Shown: in pieces, positions 5,681-64,000 of the stretch
How the letters are laid out: each line of letters starts with the position of its first letter
Position numbering within the stretch: the stretch's first letter is position 1
Translations under genes and position numbers: made by a program
Notes under the pieces: generated by a model
The model's database searches: none
What the model saw: the letters and a program-made list of their open reading frames with translations, nothing else
Told to the model about the DNA's origin: nothing
Assembly (NCBI RefSeq): GCF_018417635.1
Contig: NZ_CP071007.1
Location: 1,054,501 to 1,118,500, forward strand
Direction of reading: 5' to 3'
DNA from: Pseudomonas sp. SORT22
Lineage (GTDB): Bacteria; Pseudomonadota; Gammaproteobacteria; Pseudomonadales; Pseudomonadaceae
Length of the DNA stretch: 64,000 bases

Positions 5681-5706
5681 CATCGCGGGTCAAGCCCGCT
5701 CCCACA
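5681..5706. repeat. REP element, single
   Basis: CATCGCGGGTCAAGCCCGCT followed by CCCACA, a canonical putida-type REP arm. It lies between the small exported-protein gene and the end of the histidine kinase gene. Confidence 0.8.
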
Positions 5707-12153: not shown

Positions 12154-12184
12154 TGTGGGAGCGGGCTTGACCCGCGATGAGGCC
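12154..12184. repeat. REP element, single
   Basis: TTGTGGGAGCGGGCTTGACC followed by CGCGATGAGGCC. It is in the 291-base divergent region between the membrane fusion protein gene and the chemoreceptor gene. I see no gene in the rest of that region. Confidence 0.8.
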
Positions 12185-55821: not shown

Positions 55822-55850
55822 CCTGTGGGAGCGGGCTTGACCCGCGATAG
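55822..55850. repeat. REP element within alginate operon
   Basis: CTGTGGGAGCGGGCTTGACC followed by CGCGATAGG, in the algL-algI gap, nine bases beyond the algL stop. REP hairpins in transcripts can block RNA decay, so it could change the ratio of upstream to downstream alginate mRNA. Confidence 0.8.
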
Positions 55851-59982: not shown

Positions 59983-61464
59983 TCAGAAGCGCCAGATCAC
60001 GTCGACGAAAGCGCGGTGCATGTAGGAGTCCGCTTCCTTGCCATAGGCATCACCGGGCTTGAACACGCCGCCACGAAAGCGCACCAGTGCCGACGGCTCG
60101 TCGATCGACTGGCTCAGCGCGGCGGGCAACAGGCCCTGCTTGAAGTACTTGGTGACCACCAGGTCCATCTCCTGGCCGAGGTCTTTCTCGCCCTGGATCA
60201 GCGGCCGGTTGATGCCGTTGTCCTCGACCACGGCGTTGATGCCGCTGCTGCCGATGTTCTGGTCGCCATCGACGCGCCAGAACTTGTGGTAGATCAGGCT
60301 GGCGTCGTAGTCGTCGCGCAGTTGCCAGGAGGTGAACAGGGTCGCCGCCTGGACATTGCCCAGCTCGCCACGGAAGGCCTCGCCGAAGCGGTGTACGCGC
60401 GAGCGGGTGCCGGTGAAGTTGGAGCGGTTGCTCTCAAGGCCGGTTTGCTCGTAGTTGCCTGAACCGTCGCTACCACCGCCGCCGCTGCCGCGGGCATAAG
60501 CGGCGCCGACCTGCCAGTTGGGATCGAGGCGCAGGCGGATACCGAGGTCGGTGGCCCAGGCATTGACGTCGCCGCTCTGCTTGCCGCTGGCCACTTGCTC
60601 GCCGTTGACCGTGGTGGTGTTGAGGCTGTCGCGATCGCCGCTCAGCCAGGTCAGGCTGCCCCAGTAGTTGACGCGGTTCTGGTTGCGCCAGTTATAGGCG
60701 TCGCTGTTGGCTTCCAGTCCCAGCCAGGTGAGGTCGCCGGTGCGGGTCTTGTCCAGGGCGTCGACGGTTTCGCCGGGATTTTTCAGCTTGCCGTCGTCGT
60801 GGGTGTGGTGGGCGCGCAGGCCGACCCAGTGCCCGGGCGTCCACTGCGTGGCAACGTCGCCGTAAATGTGCAGGCGGTCCTTGTCTTCCGGCGCCAGCTC
60901 GGTGAGGTCGGTACGGTACTCGCTGAAGCGCTCGGCCACGCCCAGGTTGGCGCGCAGCAGGGTGGTGTCGAAGGTCCAGTTCAGCGCTTCGATGTTGGTG
61001 TCGCGCCACATGCCGTCGTCGTTGCGCAGGCGTTGGCGGCCAAAGCGCAGTTGCTCGCCGGGGTAGGCGGTCAGGCCGCTGTAGCCGACCCAGAACTCGC
61101 GCATGGCCAGGTAGCTTTTATCGGCTTCGCGGCCATGGGCGCGGCCGCTGTCGGACTCGGCCTCATCGCCGGACTGGCGCAGGGTGTCGGTCTCGATGAT
61201 GTCGCTGGCGGCCACCGCCTGGCCCATGGCAAAGGCGCTCCAGTTGCCGCGCTCGCCGTACACCCAGGGGCGCAGGTCCAGGCCCAGGCCGTTGACGTCG
61301 CCGCCGGAGCGGGTACCCAGGTCGCGGTCGTCTTCGGACTGGCCGGTGATCTTCACGTCCAGGCCGAAGTTCTTTTCAGCGGTCATTGCCGCCAGGGTCG
61401 GGCACGACCAGAGCAGGGCGAAGCCCAGGCCTACGCCTGCTTTCATCCACGGATTGAGTGTCAT
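59983..61464 (-). CDS. algE: Alginate outer-membrane porin AlgE
   Basis: A 493-residue outer-membrane beta-barrel that exports alginate. A signal peptide ends near [12 protein letters not shown]. The mature chain starts [20 protein letters not shown] and shows barrel strands such as WKDLGQEM-type and [20 protein letters not shown], ending in FVDVIWRF with the terminal aromatic residue. Its ATG overlaps the algK stop by four bases (ATGA), so the pair is translationally coupled. Confidence 0.95.
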
Positions 61465-62957
61465 AGGGAGTCCTCGCCTTGTTCGGGTTGCGCTTGGGCC
61501 TGCAGGGCCAGGGCATCGGCACCCGGGCCCATGGCGCCACGGGCCTGGCGCTCTTGCTGCAGCAGGCGATGGGCCTGGGCTTTTTGCGCGGGAGTGAGTT
61601 GCTGGTCGAGCTGGGCGGCCAGCTCGCGCGACTGATCGCTGGGGTTGGCTTGCGCCAGTTGGCTGAACACCCAGGCGTTGACCAGGTCCTGGCGAATGCC
61701 GTGGCCTTCGCTGAACAACTGGGCCAGGGCGTAGTCGGCGCTGAGCTGGCCGCCGCGGGCAGCGCTGAGCAGATGATCGACGGCCTTTTGCGGGTCAACG
61801 CTGCCCAGGTAACCGCGGCGATACAGCTGGCCCAGGTAGTAATGGGCGCTGACTTCGCCGGCGTTGGCGGCGCTGAGCAAATGAGTTTCGGCCTGCTGCG
61901 CATCGGCCGGCACGGTCTTGCCTTCGTAGTACAGGCGGCCTAGCAGCAGTTCGGCGCGCGGTTGTTCGGCGGCGCGGCCCTTGTCGATGTATTCCATCAG
62001 CTTGTCGGTGTCGCCAAGCTCCGGGAAGTCGTAGAGCAACTGCGCCAGGCTGACCCAGGAACCGGGGTTGACCGGCGCCACCTGCTCAAGCAGGGCCTGG
62101 GCGGTTTTCTCGTCAGTCTGGCCGAGGCTGCGGTCGGCCAGGACGCGGGCCACGCTGTCGACCCGGGTGGCCGGGATTGCACCGCGCTGGTAGGCGCTTT
62201 TGACTTGCTCGAGCAGCGCCGCTTGCTGCTCGGGCTGGGCGCGCTTCTGGTAGACGGTGGCCAGTTCCACGTAGCAGATGTCAGTGCTGCTCAGCGCCGC
62301 TTTGCAGATGCGCTCGACCTCGTCCAGGTGCTGGTCGTAGCTGTCCTGGGTGCGGTACAGCAGGATCTGGGCCAGGCCGGCTTCGGGGTAGCCGGCGCTG
62401 CGCCACGTGTCGATCTGCTGCTGGGCGTTGGTGCCGGGGAAGCTCTGCGGGTATTGCAGGTAGAGCATCGCCAGCGGGATCAGGGTGTTGCCCTCGCCAT
62501 TGGCGAAGGCTTTTTTCAATAGGGTTTCGGCTTCCTGGCGCTCGGCTTCGCTGGCGTCCGGCTTGGCCGCCAGCAAACGGCCGAGGCGGGCCTGGGCGCG
62601 CGGCGAGATATCAGCGGCGGCGCGGTAGGTGGCTTCGGCCTCCTTGAGCTTGGCCGGGTCGCGGGTTTCCACCTGGATATCGGCGAGGCCCACCTGGGCT
62701 TCGCTGTAACCGAGGTCGGCGAGCTGGCGGTAGTTCTGTTCGGCCAGGGCGGTGTCGCCGCGCTTGAGCGCTTCATTGGCCAGGCGCTGGTCGGGCAGGC
62801 CGGCACAACCGGCCAGGCTGATGGCCAGGGCCAGGCCGAGAAGGGTGCCACTGTGGGAGCGGGCTTGCCCCGCGATCGAGCACAACGCTTTGGGGAATTG
62901 AGGGGCTTCATCGCGGGGCAAGCCCGCTCCCACAGTTGGGGTGTTGAGCATATTCAT
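61461..62957 (-). CDS. algK: Alginate secretion lipoprotein AlgK, signal peptide interrupted by a REPIN
   Basis: A 498-residue TPR/Sel1-repeat lipoprotein that assembles with AlgE and AlgX at the outer membrane. The mature part begins at Cys51 of lipobox LAGC and continues [20 protein letters not shown], with repeats such as [20 protein letters not shown] and [20 protein letters not shown]. Oddly, residues 8-36 are encoded by an 87-base REP pair (62850-62936), inserted in frame between MNMLNTP and [15 protein letters not shown]. Without it the signal would be 22 residues long to the Cys. GAGGA seven bases before ATG 62957 supports the start; no usable start lies after the repeat. Export could be slowed by the long N-region. 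Ends overlapping algE. Confidence 0.92.
62850..62936. repeat. REPIN inside algK coding sequence
   Basis: Two perfect 27-base inverted arms, 62850-62876 (starting ACTGTGGGAGCGGGCTTGCC) and 62910-62936 (ending GCCCGCTCCCACAGT), around a 33-base spacer. The total of 87 bases is 29 codons, so the algK frame is unbroken. Same arm family as the other REPs in the window. Confidence 0.93.
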
Positions 62958-62969
62958 GGGCAGATCCTC

Positions 62970-64000
62970 TTAGAGCCCACGGGCCACGGCTTTATCGATC
63001 AGCCAGTCCAGCGACGGGCCTCGATTGCTGTCTACCGCCACCGGGCGGCCGGCCAGTTCGCTGGGCAGCGATTCGTCCGGCTTGATCTGCACGCGGATGT
63101 CCGAGGACAGGTCTTCGCTGTTCAGGCTGCTACTGCTGACGATCTGCCCGGTACGGGTCTGCTCTTCGCCAGCGACGGTGAAGTGCACGCGCGAGCCTGG
63201 TTTGACGTCGTCGAACTGGCGGTAGCTGAAGCGCGCTTCGACCGTGGGAATGGTGGTGCGCGGGACCAGCTGGAAGATCACCTGGCCCTTGCTTGCATAC
63301 TGGCCGTCATCCACCAGCTGGCGGGCGACCACGCAATCGCAGGGGCTGGTCAGGGTGCCGCTCATCTGTTTGCCGAACAGCTCCTCGACCTTGGCCGGCT
63401 CCAGTTGCTGGTCATCCAGGTGGCCTTTGAGCATGTCCAGCATGCTGGTGCTGAACGAGGCCAATGGCGCGCCCTTGACTACCTGGCCGCCGCTCTCCAC
63501 CAGTCCCTGCACGGTGCCGTCGCGGGGCATGGTGACGTTGCTGGTCGGTACGCTGACCACCCCGGCCTGGGCATGGCTGACGAAGTACAGGCCGTACACC
63601 GACTTGGCGATAAAGCCGAAGGCGGCAACGCCAACCACGAACACGCCGAGGCTGAAGGTCACCGCCCGCAAGCGGCCGAAGGCGCTCATCCCGCCGCTGG
63701 CGTCTTTCTGTTTGCGCGCCTTGGTGAAGTTGTCACGCTGCAGGGTACTGAGTACGTCGCCGATGGTGATCAGTTCGCCCGACAGGTGCGAGGTGATGAT
63801 GTGGCGCAGGGTGGCGATGTCGCGGGGTTCGAGGTTCTGGAACTGCACGCCGGCGCGGCCGCTGGAGGGGTCGAAGGAGCGCACCTGGAACTCGATGTCC
63901 ATGGCCAGGCCGAGCTTGTCGACGGTGAACTGCAAGCGCCCGCGCAGCACTTCGCCGACTTTCAACGGGTGCTTGGCATGGAAGCTCAGGCCGCCGGCGG
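62970..64000 (-). CDS. alg44: Alginate polymerisation protein Alg44, C-terminal part (cut by window edge)
   Basis: About 343 of roughly 390 residues of the cyclic di-GMP receptor that activates the Alg8 synthase. The window shows the end of the cytoplasmic PilZ domain (AKHPLKVGEVL and SSGRAGVQFQNLEPRDIATL), one membrane helix (VTFSLGVFVVGVAAFGFIA), and a periplasmic membrane-fusion-like domain (VSVPTSNVTMPRDGTVQGLV and SGTLTSPCDCVVARQLVDDG). The c-di-GMP-binding start lies off the right edge. Twelve bases separate it from algK. Diguanylate cyclases such as the one at 2110 could in principle feed it. Confidence 0.95.
   Translation of the reverse strand, partial: AGGLSFHAKHPLKVGEVLRGRLQFTVDKLGLAMDIEFQVRSFDPSSGRAGVQFQNLEPRDIATLRHIITSHLSGELITIGDVLSTLQRDNFTKARKQKDASGGMSAFGRLRAVTFSLGVFVVGVAAFGFIAKSVYGLYFVSHAQAGVVSVPTSNVTMPRDGTVQGLVESGGQVVKGAPLASFSTSMLDMLKGHLDDQQLEPAKVEELFGKQMSGTLTSPCDCVVARQLVDDGQYASKGQVIFQLVPRTTIPTVEARFSYRQFDDVKPGSRVHFTVAGEEQTRTGQIVSSSSLNSEDLSSDIRVQIKPDESLPSELAGRPVAVDSNRGPSLDWLIDKAVARGL

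Follow-up and report, generated by a model that had tools for sequence, protein, structure and literature searches.

The window, by which we mean the whole stretch of 64,000 nucleotides from Pseudomonas sp. SORT22 that was analysed, carries the gene algK near its end. In this gene a REPIN separates the start codon from the core of the lipoprotein signal and keeps the reading frame. The region contains the following features:

62970..63998, (-): alg44, the gene upstream of algK, truncated by the window end
61461..62957, (-): algK, lipoprotein of the alginate export complex, an ORF of 498 codons
62957-62955, (-): start codon ATG of algK, with the ribosome site AGAGGA at 62970-62965
62850..62936, (-): REPIN, 87 bases, corresponding to algK codons 8-36 (29 residues)
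62910..62936, (-): REPIN arm closer to the start codon, 27 bases
62877..62909, (-): REPIN spacer, 33 bases
62850..62876, (-): REPIN arm closer to the signal core, 27 bases
62808..62849, (-): hydrophobic core and lipobox of the signal peptide, algK codons 37-50, assigned from the sequence and by comparison with relatives
62805..62807, (-): algK codon 51, the predicted lipid-anchor Cys, at or next to which the alignments of solved AlgK chains begin

The gene in front of algK is presumably alg44, a name given from its position and from the usual operon order. Its stop codon TAA (62972-62970), the ribosome site AGAGGA and the ATG of algK share a segment of just 18 bases: stop codon and ribosome site overlap by one base, and the ATG sits 7 bases past AGAGGA. 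At the other end of the gene the last 4 bases of algK, ATGA, overlap with algE (61464-59983). The algK ORF matches the Pfam family Sel1 and is homologous to solved AlgK structures (7ula_B, E 1.1e-224; 3e4b_A, E 3.1e-201), whose chains align to the window's AlgK from residues 51 and 52 on, respectively. Residues 48-51 form the lipobox LAGC and a hydrophobic core precedes Cys51, the position that a preliminary description of this DNA had given for the cysteine in the presence of the repeat. Judging from the lipobox, the protein is presumably cleaved ahead of Cys51 and lipidated.

The arms of the REPIN are perfectly complementary over 27 bases, and the match can be extended to 32 bases at 94%. 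The element of 87 bases in frame, with its perfect arms and 33-base spacer, was recovered at codons 8-36 as described before. The REP 18-mer is present in 197 copies (99 + 98) in the 5.80-Mb single-contig genome and in 0 copies in the reversed control, which excludes a chance origin of the window's REPIN. Given the single contig, an assembly slip at this place is unlikely. The genome further contains one Y1_Tnp domain above the cut-off, adjoined by an inverted REP pair whose units are 1 and 2 bases off the algK REP; these are the two features on which the assignment as a RAYT-type gene is based. The pair next to this sole RAYT-type domain found is of a kind ending in ACCCGCGA, and the algK REP ends in CCCCGCGA. 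The ACCCGCGA-ending variant was also noticed at 5683-5705, 12155-12177 and 55825-55847 of the window and at L141:1359-1423. By structure and copy number the element in the window is a REPIN, consisting of an inverted REP pair around a spacer, present in many copies and accompanied by a putative RAYT gene with REPs. Its place is atypical: REPINs are described as extragenic, and this one lies within the algK ORF. On its 3' side there is no in-frame ATG, GTG or TTG more than 10 codons before the Cys, which agrees with the earlier statement that no usable start follows the repeat. As no usable later start exists, translation in the window would have to read through the REPIN. The REP core has no stop codon in any of the six frames, so that a REPIN whose length is a multiple of three would pose little obstacle to translation. 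No target-site duplication, which the preliminary description had suggested looking for, is visible in the sequence at the REPIN edges.

REP cores were counted in 105 distinct algK loci, made up of the window, 27 of 29 loci from relatives and 77 of 80 named contigs. The count omits L001 (the window's own copy), the duplicates L033, L053 and L101, as well as L017 and L028, whose Cys motif was not parsed (the leader of L017 has REPs, that of L028 has none). Allowing up to 3 substitutions, we found REP cores in the leader of 75 loci, with 124 matches altogether; 49 of these leaders have two arms and 26 have one. Outside the leader the same loci gave no match: not in the upstream DNA (145.7 kb), not in mature algK (139.6 kb) and not in the downstream DNA (157.3 kb), 443 kb altogether. 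Mononucleotide shuffles yielded 3 matches in 462 kb. Because these loci lean towards close relatives, an even draw across the genus was made. It comprised 149 genomes, of which 136 have an algK-like gene; 135 of these genes were readable (that of G169 remained unread), and the lipobox rule was satisfied close to the expected Cys in 135 of the 136 genomes. REPs are located in the leader of 65 of the 135 readable genes, with the frame open through to the Cys, and none was found outside the leader in the stretches retrieved around algK. REPINs and single REPs in the algK leader are a recurrent, genus-wide feature present in nearly half of the sampled Pseudomonas species, and a rare one-off insertion is ruled out by the counts in both samples. 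An artefact of assembly or chance can practically be dismissed, since the 65 leaders come from separate genome assemblies and the flanks are free of the REP core.

Two side observations were made in this sample. Each of the genomes G027, G067, G079 and G081 contains, besides algK, a further AlgK-like gene with about 50% identity. In G034 the AlgK matches are split into two overlapping pieces (G034:C1:2057211-2058604), so that this algK is either broken or affected by an assembly slip.

Occupancy of the leader was compared with the REP load of the genome in 135 of the 136 genomes (G169 omitted), counting exact copies of the REP pattern only. Leaders are occupied in 0 of 18 genomes without a copy, in 3 of 27 with 1-19 copies, in 9 of 20 with 20-99, in 17 of 28 with 100-299 and in 36 of 42 with at least 300. 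The median load is 311 for occupied and 11 for unoccupied leaders (p = 6e-14, kinship ignored). Such a dependence would be expected if insertions kept arriving at a place that tolerates them. The preliminary description had called the in-frame REPIN an unusual case; with a REP at this place in most of the REP-rich genomes this was wrong.

Next, we considered frame and placement. Of the 75 REP leaders, 66 have a recognisable start motif and the other 9 were left out; 11 of the 30 REP-free leaders have no start motif either. In all 66 leaders the REP lies within an open frame, in frame with the lipobox and without stops, and would presumably be translated. Counted from the first base of the start codon, the first REP core begins after 21-112 bases; the last one finishes 33-164 bases ahead of the Cys codon. 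The REP-free leader of L030 is out of frame when a looser motif is used, which probably reflects a wrong start. Alternatively, the start codon may be misannotated and translation begin past the repeat, leaving the repeat extragenic, as is proposed for most REPs at 5' ends of P. putida ORFs in PMC3733652. Besides this published view of N-terminal REPs, an in-frame start past the last REP in 44 of the 66 leaders, in 27 of them an ATG, would fit such a reading. However, only 4 have an SD-like stretch there, and 22 leaders, including that of the window, contain no in-frame ATG, GTG or TTG past the last REP. Furthermore, all 66 keep the frame with the upstream start, where one in three would be expected to do so if the frame were unconstrained. 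We regard a misannotated start as very improbable in general, and for the window a downstream start was rejected.

Occupancy of the leader has changed repeatedly within the genus. A tree built by careful search from the mature part of algK, at the DNA level (103 rows, the long-branch rows L027 and L030 omitted), shows at least 18 changes of occupancy, at least 15 of which are forced by supported branches, and 39 changes of configuration. A quick tree with 105 rows gave 17 and 40 changes, respectively. According to orientation and frame, two-arm leaders show six placements, in two opposite orientations. As the orientation is unchanged by point mutation and frame differences could arise by paired indels, the strict floor is two insertions. 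The nearest relative of the window on the tree, P. rubra (L045), has an empty leader (93% DNA identity, branch support 100/96), and the window's REPIN was therefore gained or lost rather recently. Of the recent, exceptional insertion assumed in the preliminary description, the recency stands to this extent and the rarity does not. The leader peptide of G117 is identical to that of P. rubra, in a genome with 349 copies of the REP pattern. By its AlgK protein G007 is about as near to the window as G117 (96% vs 95%), and it holds a different REP pair. P. sp. BGr12 carries a REPIN at nearly the same boundary as the window.

It is also conceivable, albeit quite improbable in our view, that few true insertions occurred: one or a few of ancient date would have been passed on by descent, and species would have swapped leader alleles by recombination. 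The leader class LWERAC...REQARSH and its kin is common to 34 loci, in which the spacer measures 41, 44 or 56 bases and its residues look similar by eye, and sister species differ in leader class; both observations would be in line with such an exchange. Since many leaders share a spacer, part of the 39 configuration changes may indeed be due to recombination. However, old insertions alone do not agree well with six two-arm placements in opposite orientations, with different core families at one place and REPs that look stacked by eye, or with the different spacers of the window and P. sp. BGr12. The apparent stacking concerns the leaders of L065, L085, L089, L095, L098 and L099, in which REPs seem to have entered older REP arms in frame. 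In addition, the empty leader of L003 has the right flank of the filled leader of L031 together with an ACTCCCA stretch that resembles a REP end by eye, possibly the scar of a REPIN loss.

The stem of the window's REPIN begins about 21 bases past the start codon, a distance that places it beyond the footprint of an initiating ribosome. The openness predicted for the ribosome site averages 0.42 over the 66 REP leaders and 0.47 over 18 leaders without REP, a difference that is not significant (p = 0.097). In the window it is 0.50; part of the site is paired in the predicted fold, the partner being the end of alg44 and not the REPIN. A hairpin that blocks initiation was rejected on these grounds, and the throttling of algK put forward in the preliminary description does not find support.

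The hairpin might nevertheless be selected for itself, if a stem at the boundary of alg44 and algK tuned the stability of the alginate mRNA or the translation of the operon halves and the open frame were a side condition. In favour of such a role, the predicted fold of the window RNA is much more stable than the folds of shuffled sequences (z -6.9). In the class of 34 loci a leader's arms match each other better than arms taken across loci (0.56 vs 2.08 mismatches; 0 of 5000 permutations as low), a finding that fits recent insertion and selection on the stem alike. The site just past a stop codon also resembles the tendency of REPs between same-direction genes towards the 3' end of the upstream ORF, reported in PMC3733652. 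Yet 70 of the 135 species have no REP core in the algK leader, the arms are mismatched in 12 of the 34 leaders of the commonest class, ribosome-site openness is not significantly different, and occupancy tracks the REP load as tolerance predicts. Overall we consider selection of the hairpin unlikely.

To what extent other genes carry coding REPs was assessed in the 149 genomes by searching for a lipobox behind a REP end. Such places numbered 53, spread over 40 genomes, as against 9 in the backward control; judged by position, 19 of the 53 belong to algK. With the arms in opposite order, 35 places turned up in 29 genomes and none in the backward control, and one of these, in G007, is algK by position. 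From the first scan we inspected 30 loci, 12 of algK and 18 others. Among the 18 there is one credible lipoprotein with a REPIN (L124/L210); the others have no REP, no lipoprotein-like frame, or are repeat arrays. L206 and L208 are without a REP. The exception is a SecDF-P1-head lipoprotein of genome G075 (L210:1663-2187, (-)) with a REPIN in its leader and the same layout as in algK; its ATG overlaps the stop codon of a DJ-1-family gene. Its homologue in G013 (L232) has a leader free of REPs. Among the loci inspected algK is by far the main site. Given that one other REP-bearing lipoprotein leader was found, disposability alone does not explain the preference for algK. A screen within the window's own genome covered 81 REP clusters, from the window and the stretches around the first 100 of the 197 places. 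Of these clusters, 26 lie in an ORF of at least 60 codons with a coding score above 15 on one side, and three ORFs have a REP near the 3' end. A positive coding score on both sides was found only for algK (4.5 over the 6 codons before the REP) and, trivially, for L157 (0.1, 2 codons), many 5' parts being too short to score, so that further N-terminal coding REPs are possible.

We also noticed that the REPIN contributes charge to the n-region of the signal. In 17 of the 42 two-arm leaders with a located start, including that of the window, every Lys or Arg of the leader is encoded by the REPIN, and none of the 42 is without Lys or Arg in its REPIN part. Among the 18 leaders without REP core 2 have no Lys or Arg. 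The REPIN could tentatively be seen as the working n-region of AlgK: it would supply the positive charge for targeting, and a swap between families would rewrite the export signal with the mature protein untouched, making signal peptides a coding niche for mobile repeats. Such an exaptation is possible on the basis of these residue counts, and we would not call it probable.

REPINs of Pseudomonas were reportedly studied by Bertels and Rainey, and Di Nocera is said to be the first author of a study on intragenic REPs. The window's element shares with the Pseudomonas REPINs of PMC3116915 the two inverted REPs, the GTGGGAG...GGGCTTGC core, the hundreds of copies and the RAYT gene. REPINs are described there as extragenic, with only 14 of the commonest 16-mers (1,067 occurrences) overlapping genes in SBW25, whereas the algK element lies in predicted coding sequence, at a single site that is filled in almost half of the species. 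The intragenic REPs of PMC3733652 are likewise REP dimers within ORFs that encode 20-30 residues. They are reported from many unrelated genes, in contrast to the one site in algK that recurs across the genus, and those at 5' ends of P. putida ORFs are judged mostly non-coding. The window speaks against this judgement, as no later in-frame start exists there and its copy would have to be coding. Rickettsia palindromic elements (PMC10969869, PMC3733652) are a further case of palindromic mobile DNA in frame within working genes, and some are located at N-termini and expressed according to PMC3733652. As described in PMC10969869 they are about 150 bases long and occur in many unrelated genes; the algK REPIN differs by its 87 bases and its one recurrent leader that is predicted to be removed. 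Among the matches listed in the literature searched we found no report of REPs in algK; the supplementary list of intragenic REPs of PMC3733652, outside that search, may include the gene.

Taken together, we think it probable that several REP families, as REPINs or as single REPs, repeatedly occupy the algK leader across Pseudomonas, in frame where testable, likely since the encoded residues leave with the signal peptide before AlgK acts. Much of the leader turnover would result from repeated insertion. As the junction of alg44 and algK in the window offers no spacer for an ordinary extragenic REP, the disposable leader would be the nearest tolerated place. Ribosomes would read through the REP, and the encoded residues, placed before the hydrophobic core and the lipobox, are predicted to leave with the signal peptide when signal peptidase II cuts before Cys51 and the n-region is discarded. 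Insertions that break the frame or are mis-sited would be purged by selection acting on algK as well as on algE, which begins across the stop codon of algK. The preliminary description had considered that export or lipidation of AlgK may be altered; that such leaders are tolerated in so many species speaks against a severe defect.

The cell thus likely gives REPs a harmless seat inside a gene. REPs have been called extragenic since insertions into genes were thought to be lost. The algK leader bends this rule and suggests why it bends, namely because this is coding DNA whose product would be discarded. For annotation it follows that an N-terminal REP is not necessarily the sign of a wrong start codon. 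Empty, filled and differently filled leaders in more than 100 species represent a countable natural experiment on the movement of REPINs, on their rate of turnover and on the amount of n-region that a lipoprotein signal tolerates.
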